Assembly (NCBI GenBank): GCA_014729315.1
Contig: WJKD01000154.1
Location: forward strand, 1-19,251
Source of the DNA: Promethearchaeota archaeon
Lineage (GTDB): Archaea; Asgardarchaeota; Lokiarchaeia; Sigynarchaeales; SOKP01
Direction: 5' to 3'
Length of the DNA stretch: 19,251 bases
Made by a program: the position numbers and the translations under genes. Below, piece by piece: positions 3,907 to 12,840 of this stretch. The first letter of the stretch is position 1. Each line of letters starts with the position of its first letter. The notes under the pieces were generated by a model. The model did not search any database. It was not told the origin of the DNA and saw nothing but the letters and a program-made list of their open reading frames with translations.

Positions 3907-6255
3907 ATGAGTAAAAAAGGGGCTAAGCTTAAGATCGATTCATACAAAGGTCCACTCGGATCCATAAAAGGATTCGAATTAACTGCTGGTAAAGTAAGCT
4001 ACGGTGACGAAACTGAATGGGAACCTATGGGACCAACACCAAGACCCCATATCCCAACATTGCGCGAATGGTTTTTCAAATTGATGGACAGATATAAACC
4101 CTATTATATGCCTATTTGCGATATGTGCTGCTTATGTACGTACGGAAAATGTAATCTTTCCAAGGGTAGAACAGGCGCATGCGGTATTAATATGGAAACG
4201 CAACAAGCAAGAATCGTAGAGATCGCTTGTTGTATTGGAGCTTCGTGCCATAGTGCCCATGGAGATCACTTACTTCATTGGCTTAAAGAAAAGTACGGAA
4301 ATGTTCCAATTAACTTTGGAAATAATATTGCCGTAGAGATGCCGATGGTAAGATTAATCGTCGGAATGAAACCCGAAACCTTGGAAGATTTGGAAAGTGC
4401 TATGGAATGGGTTCAATTCACAATTACCCATTTACTTGCTGCAGGTCATACCGGCCAAGAAGCGAGCTACAAAGATTACGAATCTAAAGCCTTTTTAGCT
4501 GGATTAGCTGATGCAGTAGGTATGGAAATTTCAGATGCGGTACAAATAGCAGCATATGGATTTCCAATGGGCGAACCTGAAGTACCTATTGTAGAATTAG
4601 GAATGGGAACCTTAGATACAGAGAATAAAGCAACAATTTTAATGATTGGGCATAATGTCGCGCCTGGAATTGAATTAGTTGATTATATGAGAGAAAAAGG
4701 CGTAGACGACAAAGTGGATGTTGGTGCAATTTGTTGTACTGCCTTAGATTTGACTAGATATTACGATGGAGCAAAAATTGTTGGTTCATTATCGAGACAA
4801 ATGTTCTATATTCGTTCTGGTTTAGCAGATGTAGTGATGGTTGACGAACAATGCGTTAATCTTAGGTCATACGAACAAGCTAAACTTGTTGACGCGCCAT
4901 TTATTGCAACTAACGAAAAAATTATGGCGGGTTTACCAAATAGAACTGACGATCCCGCAGAAGAAATTATCGATGATTTAGTAAGCGGAAAAGCAGATGG
5001 TGTCCTAATCCTTGATCCGGTTAAGGCTGGTAAAGTAGCTGTTGAGACGGCCATTAAAGTTAAACCGTTGAGAAAAGCGAAAAGTGCGGTTCCGGACGAA
5101 AAAGGATGCATTGAGATGGCTTTAAGGTGTAATGGATGCGGTAATTGCCAGAGGAATTGTCCTAACGATTTACCATTAGTAGAAGGAGTGAATTTAGTTA
5201 AGCAAGGAGATTTTTCAGTATTATCAGAAGCGTTTGATTCTTGCCTGGATTGCGGTAGATGCGAAGCAGATTGCATGAAAGAAGTTTCGCCATTAACCTT
5301 AATTATGTATGCTGGACGGGAAAAAATTAGAAGCGAAACCTTTAACTGTCGAGTTGGTAGAGGACCGATCCAAGACACTGAAATTAGAAATGTAGGTGCT
5401 CCTATCGTTCTTGGAGAGATTCCAGGAATTGTTGCTATTATCGGATGCGCAAACTACGGTAAAGAGATCCAAGAATTATATACGATGGCAGAAGAATTTT
5501 GTAAGCGAAATTACATCGTAGTTGTCTCTGGTTGCGGTGCAATGGATATTGGATTAGTCAAAGACGAGGACGGAAAAACATTATATGACAGATATCCAGG
5601 AGATTTCGACAGAGGCGGTTTAGTAAACGTAGGGTCATGCGTTTCAAATCCACACATTAACGGTGCCGCGGTAAAAGTTGCAAATATTTTTGCCCGAAGA
5701 CCATTGAGAGGAAACTATGAAGAGATTGCTGATTATGTACTGAATAGAGTTGGAGCTTGTGGTGTCGCTTGGGGTGCTATGAGTCAGAAAGCAGCAAGTA
5801 TCGCAAGCAGCTGCAACGGAATGGGAATTCCTGCAGTGTTAGGACCTCATTCCGCTGAATATAGAAGAATGTATATTGGACGAGCTGACGATGATGAAAC
5901 ATGGAAAGTTTGGAACGCTCGAGACGCAACACCCGATCATTTGGTTGGACCTGGACCCGAACATCTATTAACGACCGCAGAATCTATCGAACAAGCTATT
6001 TGCTTAGTAGCAAAAATGTGTTTAAGACCTGCTGATAACTCGAAGGGCAGAATGATTAAGCTTTCCCATTGGATTGATTTAGAAAGAAAATATAAGGGAG
6101 TCGAGTTTCCCGAAGATTTAGACAAATTTATTCGAGTAGAATCTGATATTCCTATCCAAATGAAGGACGGAATTATGGAATATCTAAAAGAAAAAGGTTG
6201 GGAACCAAGAGAAATTGTTGACCCAACATTGCTCGAACGCTTGTGTCATACCTAA
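3907..6255 (+). CDS. cdhA: Acetyl-CoA decarbonylase/synthase alpha subunit (Ni-Fe-S CO dehydrogenase)
   Basis: This 782-residue protein is a full-length archaeal CdhA (family about 780-810). It catalyses reversible oxidation of CO to CO2 at the NiFe4S4 C-cluster and in methanogens is the alpha subunit of the cytosolic acetyl-CoA decarbonylase/synthase complex. The N-terminal B/D-cluster block has Cys at 71, 74, 75, 77, 82 and 92. The C-cluster ligands appear as H249 (GHNVAPG), C277 (ICC), C316 (EQC), C514 (IGC), C543 (SGC) and C578 (GSC). Two ferredoxin-type 4Fe-4S sites (C408/411/414/418 and C446/449/452/456) mark the archaeal rather than bacterial CooS/AcsA form. No cdhB, C, D, E or cooC-like gene is adjacent, although the usual operon keeps them together. 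No residue expected for catalysis seems missing. Confidence 0.97.
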   Translation: MSKKGAKLKIDSYKGPLGSIKGFELTAGKVSYGDETEWEPMGPTPRPHIPTLREWFFKLMDRYKPYYMPICDMCCLCTYGKCNLSKGRTGACGINMETQQARIVEIACCIGASCHSAHGDHLLHWLKEKYGNVPINFGNNIAVEMPMVRLIVGMKPETLEDLESAMEWVQFTITHLLAAGHTGQEASYKDYESKAFLAGLADAVGMEISDAVQIAAYGFPMGEPEVPIVELGMGTLDTENKATILMIGHNVAPGIELVDYMREKGVDDKVDVGAICCTALDLTRYYDGAKIVGSLSRQMFYIRSGLADVVMVDEQCVNLRSYEQAKLVDAPFIATNEKIMAGLPNRTDDPAEEIIDDLVSGKADGVLILDPVKAGKVAVETAIKVKPLRKAKSAVPDEKGCIEMALRCNGCGNCQRNCPNDLPLVEGVNLVKQGDFSVLSEAFDSCLDCGRCEADCMKEVSPLTLIMYAGREKIRSETFNCRVGRGPIQDTEIRNVGAPIVLGEIPGIVAIIGCANYGKEIQELYTMAEEFCKRNYIVVVSGCGAMDIGLVKDEDGKTLYDRYPGDFDRGGLVNVGSCVSNPHINGAAVKVANIFARRPLRGNYEEIADYVLNRVGACGVAWGAMSQKAASIASSCNGMGIPAVLGPHSAEYRRMYIGRADDDETWKVWNARDATPDHLVGPGPEHLLTTAESIEQAICLVAKMCLRPADNSKGRMIKLSHWIDLERKYKGVEFPEDLDKFIRVESDIPIQMKDGIMEYLKEKGWEPREIVDPTLLERLCHT

Positions 6256-7231: not shown

Positions 7232-7350
7232 AACCATAGAGATATTACGAGAAGGATGGTTTTTTTAATATACTGAATTGAAATTTGTTCTTATAAGCAA
7301 TTTGTTTTTATTTTATACTTGATTTTATAAACTTAGAATTCACTAGAGTG

Positions 7351-7578
7351 ATGAATTTGACCAAAAAAGATAAAGAATTACTTAAACTTTCGAAATTGTG
7401 TCAACACTGGGCTGAACATAACGAATCGCACAAGGAAAGTTTTATTAAATGGCTGAATATCGCTAAAGATAGAGGTTTATCTGACGTTGTTGAAGACTTA
7501 AGTAGTGCTGTAAAAACCATGGATGAATGTAATAAATTTTTACTATCTGCTAAAGATCGTTTAGACAATACCTTTTAA
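7351..7578 (+). CDS. Small His/Cys-bearing helical protein (HWxxHNxxH motif), function unknown
   Basis: I choose the ATG at 7351 (75 residues) rather than the GTG three bases before it, because a TTTTATAAA TATA box at 7323-7331 places the transcription start at this ATG. The protein is predicted all-helical with no signal or membrane segment. Counting from the GTG, the key motif is LCQHWAEHNESHKESFIKW at 17-35, giving C18, H20, H24 and H28, with C61 in the second half. A second amphipathic helix ends in AKDRLDNTF. The HWxxHNxxH pattern followed by an Ala-rich helix resembles a small conserved archaeal/bacterial domain that I cannot name with confidence; metal binding is a guess. It stands alone between the TspO-like gene and the GTPase. 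Confidence 0.75.
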   Translation: MNLTKKDKELLKLSKLCQHWAEHNESHKESFIKWLNIAKDRGLSDVVEDLSSAVKTMDECNKFLLSAKDRLDNTF

Positions 7579-7786: not shown

Positions 7787-8989
7787 TTAGATAAACATAT
7801 TAATTAACGGAATCAATTGGTCTCTAAAATAACCTAATTTTTCATCTAATTTCTCGGGTTTATCTGATAGTAGCCATAAATAAACCGGAATTTGCAAATC
7901 TGAGTATTCGAATAATTTTTCTCCTCTGATAGTAATCTCGTTGGTAGGTAATTCCAATATTATCGATTTCTCCCTTAATAATCCTATTGAATTATGGAAG
8001 TTTGAAAGCGTTTGAAGTAATAATGCCGTATTATTAATTAAACTTTCATCGTTCTCATTTCGTGTATAACACCCGAAAATTAAACCATCCATAGAGATCA
8101 AACTCAAAGCTCTCCCTTGGATTTGTTCAGTAAAATCTTCTAATATGTGCTCCACAATTTCTGATGTATCTGACACGCTTATGAGCGCCTTTGAAAACGC
8201 TTGCATAATTGTTTCTTTCTGGAAAATCGTAGTATCGCAGTAGTCTATTTTAAAGTTTTCAAATTGTCCTGCGACAGCTTCAAATTTACTCTTAATAGAA
8301 TCCATATTTCTCTGCCATTCTAAAGTCTTACGGAAATCTTGGTCGGACTTATTAGCAACTATAAGAATAGGTGGTCGCTCGTTCAACTCGTTTAATACTT
8401 TTATTACTTGTTTAAGATAATTAGCTGATTCAGAGAATCTCTCCGGATCTTGTGCATCAACGACGTAGAGTACTAAATCTGCCTCGCCAAAAAATAATTC
8501 AGGTTTATTGAAATAGAGCTTCTCCCTATATTGCACCTGGCCGCCGAGGTCCCACGATATTATTGGATATCCAAAAAACTCGAGTTTTTCTCGCTTCACG
8601 CCTCTTGTAGGTAGTAAATCTTTGATTATGGAAAATTTCTCCTGCAATACGGCAAGAATGCTTGTTTTACCGCCATTATCAAGACCGATCATCAAAATTT
8701 TTTTTTGTGCTTTAATTTGCTCTTTAATGTTTTTTTCTAATACTTTTGCAATTTTAACCCATTTTTGAATAATTGAAGAGGGAATTGACTTGATTTCGGG
8801 TAAATCGTCAAGTGATAAATCAGCTAAATCTTGAATAGTATTTATCCTATATTCTTTCAGCGCATCTGCGCTTATATTGTCAATGCCTATCAATGTATCT
8901 GGCTTAAAGTCCAAGATTTCTTCAATCTCGTTGATAATTACATTGCTTTTAAAGAAATCTTTTATCTTTTCATCATTCTTTTCAGACAT
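7787..8989 (-). CDS. HhH - Arf-type small GTPase - roadblock-like fusion protein
   Basis: This 400-residue protein has three parts. Residues about 28-84 look like a helix-hairpin-helix module (TLIGIDNIS, YRINTIQDLADLS, then IPSSIIQKW). Residues 96-270 are an Arf-type G domain: P-loop GLDNGGKT (102-109), switch I PTRG with T128, WDLGGQ (146-151) with catalytic-type Q151, and NKSD (213-216). Residues about 275-400 run helix, strand, strand (SLISMDGLIFGCYT, 296-309), helix, three strands and a final helix, the order of the roadblock/LC7 (MglB-like) fold. Rag/Gtr GTPases also carry a C-terminal roadblock domain used for dimerisation. There is no N-terminal Gly for myristoylation. It is divergent from the vWA-zinc-finger gene. 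GTPase certain; roadblock probable; HhH likely. Confidence 0.92.
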   Translation of the reverse strand: MSEKNDEKIKDFFKSNVIINEIEEILDFKPDTLIGIDNISADALKEYRINTIQDLADLSLDDLPEIKSIPSSIIQKWVKIAKVLEKNIKEQIKAQKKILMIGLDNGGKTSILAVLQEKFSIIKDLLPTRGVKREKLEFFGYPIISWDLGGQVQYREKLYFNKPELFFGEADLVLYVVDAQDPERFSESANYLKQVIKVLNELNERPPILIVANKSDQDFRKTLEWQRNMDSIKSKFEAVAGQFENFKIDYCDTTIFQKETIMQAFSKALISVSDTSEIVEHILEDFTEQIQGRALSLISMDGLIFGCYTRNENDESLINNTALLLQTLSNFHNSIGLLREKSIILELPTNEITIRGEKLFEYSDLQIPVYLWLLSDKPEKLDEKLGYFRDQLIPLINMFI

Positions 8990-9340
8990 TGTAAATCGGA
9001 TTTTAAAATTTTTTTCTTAGTTATAATAATTGTATAAATCTTCATTATAAAAAGTTTTATTATCTAAGAAGATAGTTTAATTTTTTATATAATTTTGTTT
9101 TCGCAAATAAAATTTAATACTATGTTATTTGAACAATTAATCATTAACATAGTTCTGACCTAAATTATTCTTGCTTTTATAATTCTTGTTAATGGTTATT
9201 AAATATAATTTTGACAAAGATATAATATAAAGGAAAGAAAATTGATTTATCCACTATCAAAATATATAATAAAAAGCTTTTTTATTAGTTCTTTGAAATA
9301 TTATACATTGAAAAAATAATTTGAACATATCAGGTAAATA
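8990..9340. other. 351-bp divergent promoter region between the GTPase and vWA genes
   Basis: It is strongly AT-rich with no gene. A minus-strand TATA-like TTTTAAAAT lies about 20 nt before the GTPase start. On the plus side are an AAAAAGCTTTTT palindrome (9271-9282), a TATA-like ATTATACAT (about 9299-9307) and an AGGT motif 5 nt before the ATG at 9341. The GTTAATGGTTATTAA element at 9188-9202 is the exact reverse complement of one upstream of cdhA. Confidence 0.5.
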
Positions 9341-10540
9341 ATGTCTAAGCGAGTTAGCGAAAATATCATCCTCTGTATAGATACTTCTCGCTCCATGTAT
9401 AGGACGGATTATGCTCCTAGTCGGCTAAAGTGTAGTATAGGCGCTTTAAAGAAACTTGTACATCAAAGACTTCAAGAAGACTCGAGCAGTGCATTTGCTA
9501 TAGTCAGCTTTAAAGACAAAGCCAAAAAAGAATTAGACTTCACCGCTTTAACGGATTTAATTAATTCTACTTTAGATAATTTGGATTATGGGGGAAATAG
9601 TGCTCTTGGTGATGCGTTAGGTTTATCTATTAAGTTAATTATCGAAGAATTAAGAAAAGTAGCAGCAAAAACACCTCGCATATTAGTAGTGTCGGATGGA
9701 AACTACACTCAGACTGCAATAGATCCTATGAAAATGGCAAGACTAGCCCAAGGTTTAGGGATTAGAATTGACGCATTTAAGTTAGGAGAAATATCCGTAT
9801 CTAATCTAAATATCTTAAAAAGAGTGAGCGAAGCAACTAAAGGAAAGTATTATTATAATAACGACAAACCTTCCTTAATCTCAGCATCTCAAGATTTTGC
9901 CAATTCTAACGTAAAAACCTACGGAAAAACTGAGAAAAGCATCGTTGAAAATCCTAATTTCTTAAGGAAAATCGCCGCAAACTTGTTAAGAGTGCAAGAT
10001 CTCTCAAAATCGCAAGAAATAAAAATTAAACAATTAAGAGGAGAAGCTGATTTTAAGAAGTGTTCAATTTGTTTTCAAGAGAACGATCCCGTCACAAAAG
10101 GATCTTTTTTTCTTACAGGGAGATATTGTCCAAATTGTAACGCCTCATTCCACATACATTGTCTTGCAGGATGGGCAGATTCTCAAGAAGACCCCAAAAT
10201 GAAGCAGGCTGGCACAGTAAGATGTCCTCATTGCTTTTATTTACTAAAGATCCCACCAGAAGTCACACAAGCACAGAAACTGAAAGCTTTGACTTCTCTG
10301 CAAGGTTCCTCAAAATCTAATGCTAAAAAACCAGAACAATTTGAAGCAATTTTAGAAAATATCACAGATCTCGGAGACGAAGCATTATATAACTCCTGTC
10401 CTTATTGTAATATGATTTTTGAAAGTAATCAAGGAGTAATCCGATGTACCAATTGTAGTAATCTCTATCACATAAAATGCTTTCAAAAACTCGAGGAAGG
10501 GCGATGTAAAATTTGTGGTGTTAAATTAAAGCTACAGTGA
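9341..10540 (+). CDS. vWA-domain protein with two C4HC3 (RING/PHD-like) zinc fingers
   Basis: Residues about 7-190 form a von Willebrand A domain with a MIDAS: DTSRS (14-18), the GGNSALGDAL stretch (84-93, where Thr is more usual) and D119 in VVSDG. A helical linker follows. Finger 1 is C241-x2-C244-x18-C263-x2-C266-x4-H271-x2-C274-x20-C295-x2-C298. Finger 2, at the C-terminus, is C353-x2-C356-x12-C369-x2-C372-x4-H377-x2-C380-x8-C389-x2-C392. Both are C4HC3, the arrangement of PHD and RING-variant fingers. vWA followed by zinc fingers recalls TFIIH Ssl1/p44 and, for the vWA alone, Rpn10; I claim only similar architecture. An E3-ligase or scaffold role is possible. No signal peptide or membrane segment is seen. 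AGGT 5 nt before the ATG supports the start. Confidence 0.9.
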   Translation: MSKRVSENIILCIDTSRSMYRTDYAPSRLKCSIGALKKLVHQRLQEDSSSAFAIVSFKDKAKKELDFTALTDLINSTLDNLDYGGNSALGDALGLSIKLIIEELRKVAAKTPRILVVSDGNYTQTAIDPMKMARLAQGLGIRIDAFKLGEISVSNLNILKRVSEATKGKYYYNNDKPSLISASQDFANSNVKTYGKTEKSIVENPNFLRKIAANLLRVQDLSKSQEIKIKQLRGEADFKKCSICFQENDPVTKGSFFLTGRYCPNCNASFHIHCLAGWADSQEDPKMKQAGTVRCPHCFYLLKIPPEVTQAQKLKALTSLQGSSKSNAKKPEQFEAILENITDLGDEALYNSCPYCNMIFESNQGVIRCTNCSNLYHIKCFQKLEEGRCKICGVKLKLQ

Positions 10541-10666: not shown

Positions 10667-11554
10667 ATGGTTGATAATGCATATTTTACGTACGGAAACG
10701 ATATTCGTGTTGGACACGGTCATTTTAATTTTCCTCCCGTATTAATAGGGACTATGTTTTATCAAGGTCAAACCATTGTCGATCGGAGTAATCCCGAAGT
10801 GTTTAATGGAGAAAAAGCAAAAAAAAGAATAAACACTCATAATGAACTTTCCAAGAAATATAAAATTCCTGGGATGATTGAGATTTCGGCAATTACTCCC
10901 AAATCGATGATTAAATATTTAGATTTTTATCTAGAGAACTTTAACCCTCCTTTCGTATTAGGAGGTACTTTCGACGCTCGAGTTGCTGGAATAGAATATT
11001 TAAACGAGAGGGGAATTAAACCGAACGAATATATTTACAATACTATCTCGAATTTAAAGAATAAAAAAGAAATTGACCTCTTAAAGCACAATAAGATTGA
11101 AACAGTAGTTATATTAATATTAGGATCGGAAAACATGACCTCTACTCAACGATTTTCGTATATAACTGCAAAAACTCAACCCAATAACGAGAGCATAATT
11201 GACGGATTAAAAAGAATAGGAATTCCTCGGATTTGGGTGGATGGAGGGGTCGTAGATCTCGAAAGTTTAGCTCATATACTTGAGACCCAACAACTCGTTT
11301 CTTCCTCGTTAAATTTACCAGTTGGAACAGCACCAGGACTTTTTCTTTTCAAATATGCTTCTCCCAGATTGAATATAAAGTTTCACACGCGATATAGGAG
11401 AGCAAGTATTTTCTTCATTGCGACTTGGTTTTCAAATTTTCTCTTTTATGGTGCTATTGAAGATGCTAAAGAATGCTTTGCTTCCGTGTATCAATCTTAT
11501 GAATTTAAAAAAGTTCTAAAAAGCCATAATATTCGTCTTATGGAGGATCTCTAA
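10667..11554 (+). CDS. MtrH-like methyltransferase (tetrahydromethanopterin S-methyltransferase subunit H family)
   Basis: The 295-residue protein matches MtrH (about 310 residues) along its length. VLIGTMFYQGQTIVD (25-39) corresponds to the conserved IGS-FY-KIV start, MIKYLDFYLENFNPPFVLGGT (81-101) and the YNTIS strand (124-128, with N125) follow, and VDGGVVDLESLAHI (191-204) then LPVGTAPG (217-224) complete the TIM-barrel features. MtrH transfers the methyl group between tetrahydromethanopterin and a corrinoid protein. MtrH homologs outside the Mtr membrane complex are known as partners of corrinoid proteins in methylamine- or betaine-type methyltransfer. No other mtr gene and no corrinoid protein is adjacent, so the donor is unknown. 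The family's LIDST-type segment reads LGGTF here. Confidence 0.88.
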   Translation: MVDNAYFTYGNDIRVGHGHFNFPPVLIGTMFYQGQTIVDRSNPEVFNGEKAKKRINTHNELSKKYKIPGMIEISAITPKSMIKYLDFYLENFNPPFVLGGTFDARVAGIEYLNERGIKPNEYIYNTISNLKNKKEIDLLKHNKIETVVILILGSENMTSTQRFSYITAKTQPNNESIIDGLKRIGIPRIWVDGGVVDLESLAHILETQQLVSSSLNLPVGTAPGLFLFKYASPRLNIKFHTRYRRASIFFIATWFSNFLFYGAIEDAKECFASVYQSYEFKKVLKSHNIRLMEDL

Positions 11555-11632: not shown

Positions 11633-11687
11633 AAGACTTAAGTTTTCTAAAATGTATTATACAATATAGAATAAATTACTCAAAATT

Positions 11688-11692
11688 GGAGG
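11688..11692 (+). promoter_or_regulatory. Shine-Dalgarno GGAGG that fixes the start at 11701
   Basis: GGAGG followed by an 8-nt spacer and ATG at 11701 is the best initiation context in the window. It rules out the in-frame TTG at 11686, which overlaps the motif. Confidence 0.7.
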
Positions 11693-11700
11693 AAAGTATA

Positions 11701-12840
11701 ATGATTAATAACCGTCGCGATGTGGAAGCGAAAGAATTAGAAGCCATGCAACTTATCGATCGCGCAGAAAGTTTAGCAGATGAAGGAAAAGGAGAAGAAT
11801 CAATTAACTTGTTTGAAAAAGCAGCACAAATTTATCTAGATTTCGGTAGCTACTTAAAGTTAGACGAATTATATATTAAAATCGCAAATGTGGTTTCTAA
11901 ATTCAAAAATAATATCCAAGCAATATATAGATTGAAATCTATTATACGAAAAACGGAGGAACTTAAGTTAGACGAGATCTCTGCAAAATTACTAATACAA
12001 TTAGGAAATATTGCCTACAAAATGAAAGACTGGGAAACCGCAGCCGATAGTTGGAGTAAAGCGTCCGATTATTTCTACGAGTCAGATCCTGAAATTTATT
12101 ATAATTTATCTTCAGAATTACTATTAAGAGCAGGGCAAGCTTTAGAATGGTCTAATCAGAGAAGAGACGAAGGAGAAAGGCTAATTCTAAAAGCAGTTAT
12201 GACTATCAATAAGTTTGATGATCTCTATCACATGGAAGAGAAACGAGCGTTAAATCTACTCTCAATGAATGAATTTGAAGCTGCGGCAAACAAATATCGC
12301 GAAATTTCAATATATTTTGATAAAGCAACTGAGAATATCAACGAATTAATGGAGGAATCCGAAAATCTGAACGCAATAAAAAATGCAAAAGCAAGAATAA
12401 TGCATTTAACAGCAGAGTACAAGGCTGTGGCTGCCTTATGCTTAAGAGCCTCTAAAAATCGGGCATATAATGAAGAAATCAAACAAATCGGAACACAGGT
12501 TATTGATCTGTTAAAATCGTCTATCCAATTGCTAAAAGAAGTATTTCAAGATAGAGGAAACGAAATTGATAAGGAAGACAGATTGCGAATTACTTTCGAC
12601 ACACTACTTTTGTCTATTATGCAAGGAATGCTGGGAAAAAAGGAAATAAATTCGCTAAAATTCTTAATGGAAAATATATCTAATAAAAAATTAATAAAAA
12701 ATTTAAAAGCGACTCCATTTTACAAACTTACAGAGCGCATCGAAAAAGTAGGAATAAGAGAATCGTTAGATAAACTTTCAGAAACGCATCTAGGTCATCT
12801 TGATAAGGTAAAAGAGGAGTTAGTCCCATTTTTCGTTTGA
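11701..12840 (+). CDS. TPR/SNAP-like all-helical repeat protein
   Basis: The 379-residue product starts at 11701, set by the GGAGG motif. It is entirely helical and soluble. The first half shows TPR-like pairs: AMQLIDRAESLADEGK... SINLFEKAAQIYLDFG (about 15-49), LYIKIANVVSKF, LLIQLGNIAYKMKDWETAADSWSKASDYF (about 98-126), then LLLRAGQALEW and FEAAANKYREISIYFDKA. The second half (about 205-340) is a longer helical bundle ending in a conserved-looking FYKLTERIEKVGI. Stacked TPRs with an alpha-SNAP-like spacing act as protein-binding scaffolds; Asgard genomes contain many such proteins. No partner is evident; it lies between the MtrH-like and radical SAM genes with independent promoters. Confidence 0.85.
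   Translation: MINNRRDVEAKELEAMQLIDRAESLADEGKGEESINLFEKAAQIYLDFGSYLKLDELYIKIANVVSKFKNNIQAIYRLKSIIRKTEELKLDEISAKLLIQLGNIAYKMKDWETAADSWSKASDYFYESDPEIYYNLSSELLLRAGQALEWSNQRRDEGERLILKAVMTINKFDDLYHMEEKRALNLLSMNEFEAAANKYREISIYFDKATENINELMEESENLNAIKNAKARIMHLTAEYKAVAALCLRASKNRAYNEEIKQIGTQVIDLLKSSIQLLKEVFQDRGNEIDKEDRLRITFDTLLLSIMQGMLGKKEINSLKFLMENISNKKLIKNLKATPFYKLTERIEKVGIRESLDKLSETHLGHLDKVKEELVPFFV

Follow-up and report, generated by a model that had tools for sequence, protein, structure and literature searches.

The window analysed here, a stretch of 19,251 nucleotides from a Promethearchaeota archaeon, encodes a 400-aa GTPase in which a helix-hairpin-helix (HhH) head, a Rag-like G domain with intact nucleotide-binding motifs and a roadblock domain are carried together by a single open reading frame (7787..8989, minus strand), as judged from the ORF, Pfam, structure models and relatives; the opposite, plus strand of the same interval holds many stops. 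The HhH domain, of the NusA-AR2/RadA-N type, covers residues ~27-91 (8717..8911, minus strand), with its hairpin at G35-I36-D37. It is followed by the Arf/Rag-type G domain at residues 93-273 (8171..8713, minus strand; P-loop GLDNGGKT, PTRGV, WDLGGQ and NKSD) and by the roadblock/longin-type domain at residues 274-399 (7793..8170, minus strand), which was delineated by the model and by a profile match to LokiRagO; there the order of helices and strands fits in the structure model, and the alignment reaches residue 398. The sequence-only reading of this gene had proposed just these three parts, and the architecture is real: both terminal folds that it predicted, HhH at the N-terminus and a profilin-like roadblock at the C-terminus, were recovered.

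Two Pfam families overlap on the G domain, Arf (residues 91-220, E 7.1e-23) and Gtr1_RagA (residues 97-304, E 8.9e-20), and the motifs of a Ras-superfamily G domain (P-loop, PTxG, DxGGQ and the xKxD base motif) are all present. The general NCBIfam model small_GTP barely exceeded its cut-off (43.0 vs 42.5 bits), and the NCBIfam models MnmE, EngA and HflX fell far under theirs and were set aside as general GTPase similarity. Throughout the 52 aligned members (52/52), G102, G107 and K108 of the P-loop, T128, G130, D147, GGQ 149-151 and KSD 214-216 are invariant; these include the Q151 picked out earlier, and within the NKSD motif residue 213 varies, being Asn in 18 members, Ser in 26 and His in 8. 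The label 'Arf-type' that had been given to this domain stands for the G domain alone, where Arf/Arl scores equal or exceed those of eukaryotic Rag (in a profile search of solved structures Arl3, E 1e-19, outranks RagA, E 3e-17), but is incomplete for the protein, which is Rag-like by domain layout, by whole-chain structure and by best solved relative. Arf-family proteins have a single domain and a short amphipathic N-terminal helix, without a fused roadblock; the G domain described here is like theirs, whereas it lies between an HhH head and a roadblock tail, and the second residue of the chain is Ser. An existing paper reportedly addresses where Arf GTPases arose among the Asgard archaea. 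The Switch II segment (residues 151-167; 8489..8539, minus strand) aligns to LokiRagO with one gap position and to Arl3 with five, which fits the Switch II insert reported for Asgard GTPase-roadblock (GTPase-RB) proteins in section 7 of Tran et al. 2024 (PMC10933270).

The whole-chain structure and profile matches go to LokiRag and Rag/Gtr proteins. Rag/Gtr GTPases, which are nutrient switches in eukaryotes, form dimers, the eukaryotic ones being heterodimers of unlike Rags that work with Ragulator/EGO, and a C-terminal roadblock on the same chain, part of their layout, is found in the window protein also. The profile match to LokiRagO (PDB 8yl2), a lokiarchaeon RagA-like GTPase that is a homotetramer by its structure title, spans query residues 83-392 and starts at residue 30 of LokiRagO, too near its N-terminus for a comparable HhH head to fit in front. 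LokiRagM (monomeric Rag-like; PDB 8zla, 9m28) shares the Rag-like G domain, with a profile E of 1.3e-46 over query residues 93-334, but is matched from its residue 7 onward and hence has no HhH head, and its whole-chain superposition is poor (rmsd 14). Matches to eukaryotic RagA, RagC, Gtr1 and Gtr2 run from about residue 87 of our model onward, so these too have no HhH head. Fusion of a GTPase to a roadblock is itself known in Asgard archaea: section 7 of Tran et al. (PMC10933270) gives predicted GTPase-RB fusions in strain MK-D1, with the GTPase ahead of the RB and a Switch II insert, as here. That section names longin and RB fusions, and the terms 'hairpin' and 'HhH' are absent from the main text of the paper; our searches of the open-licence PMC literature returned no description of an HhH-headed Rag-like Asgard GTPase. 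The suggestion of an undescribed GTPase class therefore narrows to one component, since the G+roadblock kind is on record (PMC10933270; LokiRagO) and the HhH head is the part for which we found no description in print.

Structure comparison places residues 27-91 in the HhH fold, with NusA, RadA/Rad51 and polymerase-thumb domains as fold neighbours. The acidic repeat AR2 of NusA and the N-terminal domain of RadA/Rad51 have the same fold, there on proteins other than such a GTPase, and AR2, a near structural match to the head, has been solved in complex with a protein, SuhB. At the profile level, the match of the N-terminal region to NusA (E 1.6e-4) combines two repeats that are each weak singly (E above 1), and single NusA or RNA polymerase alpha domain entries gave E 0.02-0.03. 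We took matches to RecB-like TM0106 (E 1e-3) and to the RNA polymerase alpha C-terminal domain (E 1.7e-3) to reflect an HhH resemblance rather than family membership; those to Pfam DUF507 (23/52 whole proteins, best E 0.004), Calmod_bind_M (16/47 pieces, best E 5e-4) and SAM_EPH (13/47) were tentatively put down to chance or helical similarity. DNA-binding HhH hairpins have two glycines (h-G-h-G); the window protein has Asp at the second glycine position, and the hairpin is G35-[IV]36-D37 in 52/52 of its close relatives. The head had been described as DNA- or protein-binding; given this hairpin, the DNA half of that description is weakened, and protein binding seems the likelier in the window's close relatives. 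The canonical GIG hairpin was seen in 3 of the 18 deep sequences examined (L101, L107 and, from Heimdallarchaeum, L102).

As a control, the N-terminal profile was run on 894 ORFs of the neighbourhoods, where its 68 matches at E <= 1e-3 fell exclusively on GTPase-profile ORFs, most of them in or near the training set; it left 29/97 GTPase-profile ORFs unmatched (L103 among them), and none of 8 Loki paralogues reached E 0.01. At loci outside the training set (L084-L109) it matched 25/26 at E <= 1e-3, with L103 at E 0.01. Of 7996 candidates scored in a protein search, 579 were relatives at E <= 1e-3; among the matches listed (119 besides the protein itself) identity was 67-76%, and all with a named organism were Asgard (Promethearchaeota, Loki-, Hodarchaeota etc.). 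A 20-row GTPase profile matched 111 of the 227 genomes of the phylum at E <= 1e-45, and when 20 further genomes were picked from these 111, the best match of 19 began at profile position 6-23, in the head (the exception being G162). Because of these 19/20 genomes and the 25/26 loci, we conclude that the HhH head is widespread in Asgard archaea, Heimdallarchaeum included. Strong GTPase orthologues were defined at 400 bits, which 68 genomes pass; with G003 (304 bits, cut by the contig start) they number 69/227. Our genome surveys for the GTPase and the two neighbour proteins described below scored at most 8 candidates per genome, and absences are therefore weak. A tree was built by a quick method from 52 G+RB sequences, all Asgard, and has many long branches; in it the window's clade joins its near relatives (98), and the deep HhH-bearing rows are not one clade against HhH-less paralogues, a pattern compatible with one or with several origins of the HhH fusion.

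What the gene does is best hinted at by its conserved neighbourhood of VWA-RING and TPR genes, beyond the coordinates that the sequence-only reading had covered. Across a region of 351 bases (8990..9340), the GTPase gene diverges from a plus-strand gene (9341..10540) for a 399-aa VWA-RING protein, a candidate partner with a VWA domain at residues ~8-178 and RING-like Cys/His modules at ~240-298 and ~351-392. Beyond it on the same strand lie an MtrH-like methyltransferase gene (10667..11554; Pfam MtrH, E 1.5e-32) and the gene for another candidate partner, a TPR protein (11686..12840; Pfam TPR) of 384 aa if translation begins at the TTG (first ATG 11701). At a threshold of 430 bits, which excluded a second paralogue family as well as G085, G086, G159 and G161 (339-363 bits), VWA-RING passes in 67/227 Asgard genomes, 65 of them also with a strong GTPase. 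The two genes share a contig in 57 genomes and are divergent in 56 of the 57, with <=392 bases between the aligned parts in 54 pairs and 669 and 2672 in the others; one pair is on the same strand, 2.1 kb apart, and in 8 genomes the genes are on different contigs. Correlated loss of the two genes was not counted as evidence, the pattern looking like assembly incompleteness: when 29 genomes were placed on an RpoB tree (G001 yielded no match), most of the 7 lacking a strong GTPase were spread over it (6 changes vs a shuffled mean of 6.4) and one was almost identical to a GTPase-bearing genome, so that co-absence reads as missing contigs. A Fisher test on the two genes was therefore set aside.

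Flanks were available for 35 Loki loci, and the VWA-RING gene was near the GTPase gene at 34 of them and at 6 of 11 deeper loci (L044-L050, L084-L087; GTPase identity 31-38%), and the TPR gene at 26/35 and 7/11. Other neighbours were not kept, namely CODH (25/35 Loki vs 0/11 deeper), MtrH (29/35 vs 0/11, a neighbour in Loki loci only), a 76-aa gene (21/35 vs 0/11) and radical SAM (12/35 vs 0/11). The deeper loci without VWA-RING are L045 and L087, on contigs of ~5 kb, and L047-L049, where it is absent nearby in stretches of 10-17 kb; at the 22 deepest loci (L088-L109) it is not beside the GTPase. At L090, L091 and L095 the HhH GTPase is divergent from a VWA gene without CxxC pairs or RING cysteines, and for want of the CxxC pairs these were not counted as VWA-RING; genes flanking L092-L100 were suspected of belonging to the same module and were dropped after their sequences were read.

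Against solved structures, the VWA-RING profile best matched one Rpn10 (63.1 bits, E 2.7e-16), followed by 4rck, annotated as membrane-spanning (55.5 bits). Other Rpn10 chains (39.6-46.2 bits) are tied with TFIIH p44 (43.5-43.8 bits, E 2e-10), and the Rpn10 lead over p44 comes from a single chain; Pfam Ssl1 is matched as well (E 8e-9). Rpn10 and TFIIH p44/Ssl1 have the VWA domain in common with the neighbour protein, which adds tandem RING-like modules behind it. The Cys/His positions of the two modules are invariant in 8/8 sequences, and the modules match known E3 RINGs weakly (E 0.015-0.023; Nse1, E 0.013). Many of the same genomes hold a more distant VWA-RING paralogue family (roughly 230-300 bits). 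No Asgard VWA/RING/Rpn10 partner of such a GTPase was found in our open-licence PMC literature searches. For the TPR protein, the profile search led to designed TPR proteins, with a weak match to alpha-SNAP (E 1e-3); at E <= 1e-40 the TPR protein occurs in 68/227 genomes, and 58 of the 64 strong ones have the GTPase and VWA-RING. Six of the 11 deeper loci have a gene for a proteasome alpha subunit near the GTPase gene (identified by Pfam Proteasome, 4e-51, in L046 and by the same BLAST cluster in the others): at L045 and L046 it is 213-231 bases away, at L050, L084, L085 and L086 1.4-5 kb. None was found within the stretches examined of the 35 Loki loci, which confines the proteasome link to loci outside the clade of the window; a gene of the same cluster that is 6.7-7.4 kb off and convergent in L092, L097, L098 and L099 was judged too distant to count. 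Ubiquitin E2 (PF00179) is present in 64/69 GTPase genomes, a co-occurrence that is not specific because E2 is in 166/227 Asgard genomes overall.

The best explanation in our view, which we hold tentatively and would not yet call probable, is that the protein is a Rag-like switch and regulates a protein-degradation adaptor of the RING/VWA kind. The G domain, fused to its own roadblock, would probably oligomerise through it; the N-terminal HhH head would bind a protein, the product of the divergent VWA-RING gene being the likeliest partner, with the TPR protein perhaps as scaffold; and recruitment or activity of the adaptor, whose output may be ubiquitylation or delivery to the proteasome, would depend on whether GTP or GDP is bound. 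We favour this reading because of the three-domain architecture, the divergent linkage, the retention of VWA-RING and TPR genes in deeper loci, the Rpn10 best match of the VWA protein, the proteasome alpha genes near the GTPase, the E2 co-occurrence and, for the head, the G-[IV]-D hairpin and the protein-bound structure of NusA AR2. Against it stand the loci without VWA-RING beside the GTPase (L088-L109) and those that keep the GTPase without the linkage (L047-L049), the lack of a proteasome alpha gene in the Loki stretches examined, and, on the side of sequence comparison, the single-chain lead of Rpn10, the weak E3 RING matches and the nonspecificity of E2.

The same deepest loci would suit a free-standing Rag-like nutrient or membrane switch, in which the HhH docks a protein and the VWA-RING linkage reflects shared regulation or inherited gene order. 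The resemblance of the G+RB half to LokiRagO and Rag/Gtr and the metabolic genes among Loki neighbours (MtrH-like, CODH) also speak for such a switch, but the divergent pair has been kept at 31-38% GTPase identity (L044, L050, L084-L086) while four other neighbours were not kept, and we regard this account as rather doubtful. Less likely again is a nucleic-acid-linked GTPase for transcription or repair, its HhH binding DNA or RNA and its VWA-RING neighbour akin to TFIIH p44. The fold neighbours of the head, the GIG hairpins of L101, L102 and L107, the Ssl1 match and the p44 match, which most Rpn10 chains do not better, all agree with that idea; the Asp that replaces the second hairpin glycine in every close relative, the rarity of GIG among the deep sequences and the proteasome alpha genes at deeper loci argue against it. 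MglB, a roadblock protein, is GAP and GEF for MglA (PMC11016934), and a roadblock built into the GTPase might serve likewise in a polarity or cytoskeletal switch. MglA and MglB, however, are separate proteins where the window has one ORF, the whole-chain matches go elsewhere, to LokiRag and Rag/Gtr, and no polarity or motility gene stood among the neighbours that could be identified (many could not), which makes a switch of this kind highly improbable.

Asgard small GTPases number dozens per genome (74 in MK-D1, according to section 7 of PMC10933270); among them the HhH GTPase has a defined domain architecture, a distribution that runs deep into Asgard, Heimdallarchaeum included, and a specific set of candidate partners. 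If the coupling to the degradation adaptor is true, it would provide a function for an archaeal Rag-like GTPase and might tie Rag-type switching to protein degradation already before eukaryotes. The full proposition, that widespread Asgard HhH-headed Rag-like GTPases gate a ubiquitin/proteasome-linked VWA-RING adaptor and that Rag switching and regulated degradation were coupled before eukaryotes, is a speculative one that we consider unlikely as it stands.

Also near the GTPase gene, the window holds a CO dehydrogenase-type gene (Prismane/CODH; 3907-6255, plus strand), after which L001 and many Loki loci have a ~200-aa gene, an Arf-like GTPase gene (with a ~170-aa N-terminal region) and a ~470-aa gene. 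Convergent with the GTPase gene is the 76-aa gene (7348-7578, plus strand), which has relatives in the 21 Loki loci counted above and gave no Pfam or NCBIfam match above a cut-off. At L044 (7986-10184, plus strand) the HhH GTPase gene is followed, after 102 bases and on the same strand, by a second Rag-like GTPase gene (9270-10184) without the HhH, and by analogy the products could possibly form an unlike pair as in RagA/RagC. At L109 (7861-12681, minus strand), in one deep Asgard genome, four GTPase paralogues are adjacent, two without a match to the HhH profile, one matching it weakly (E 0.003) and one clearly (E 1e-6).
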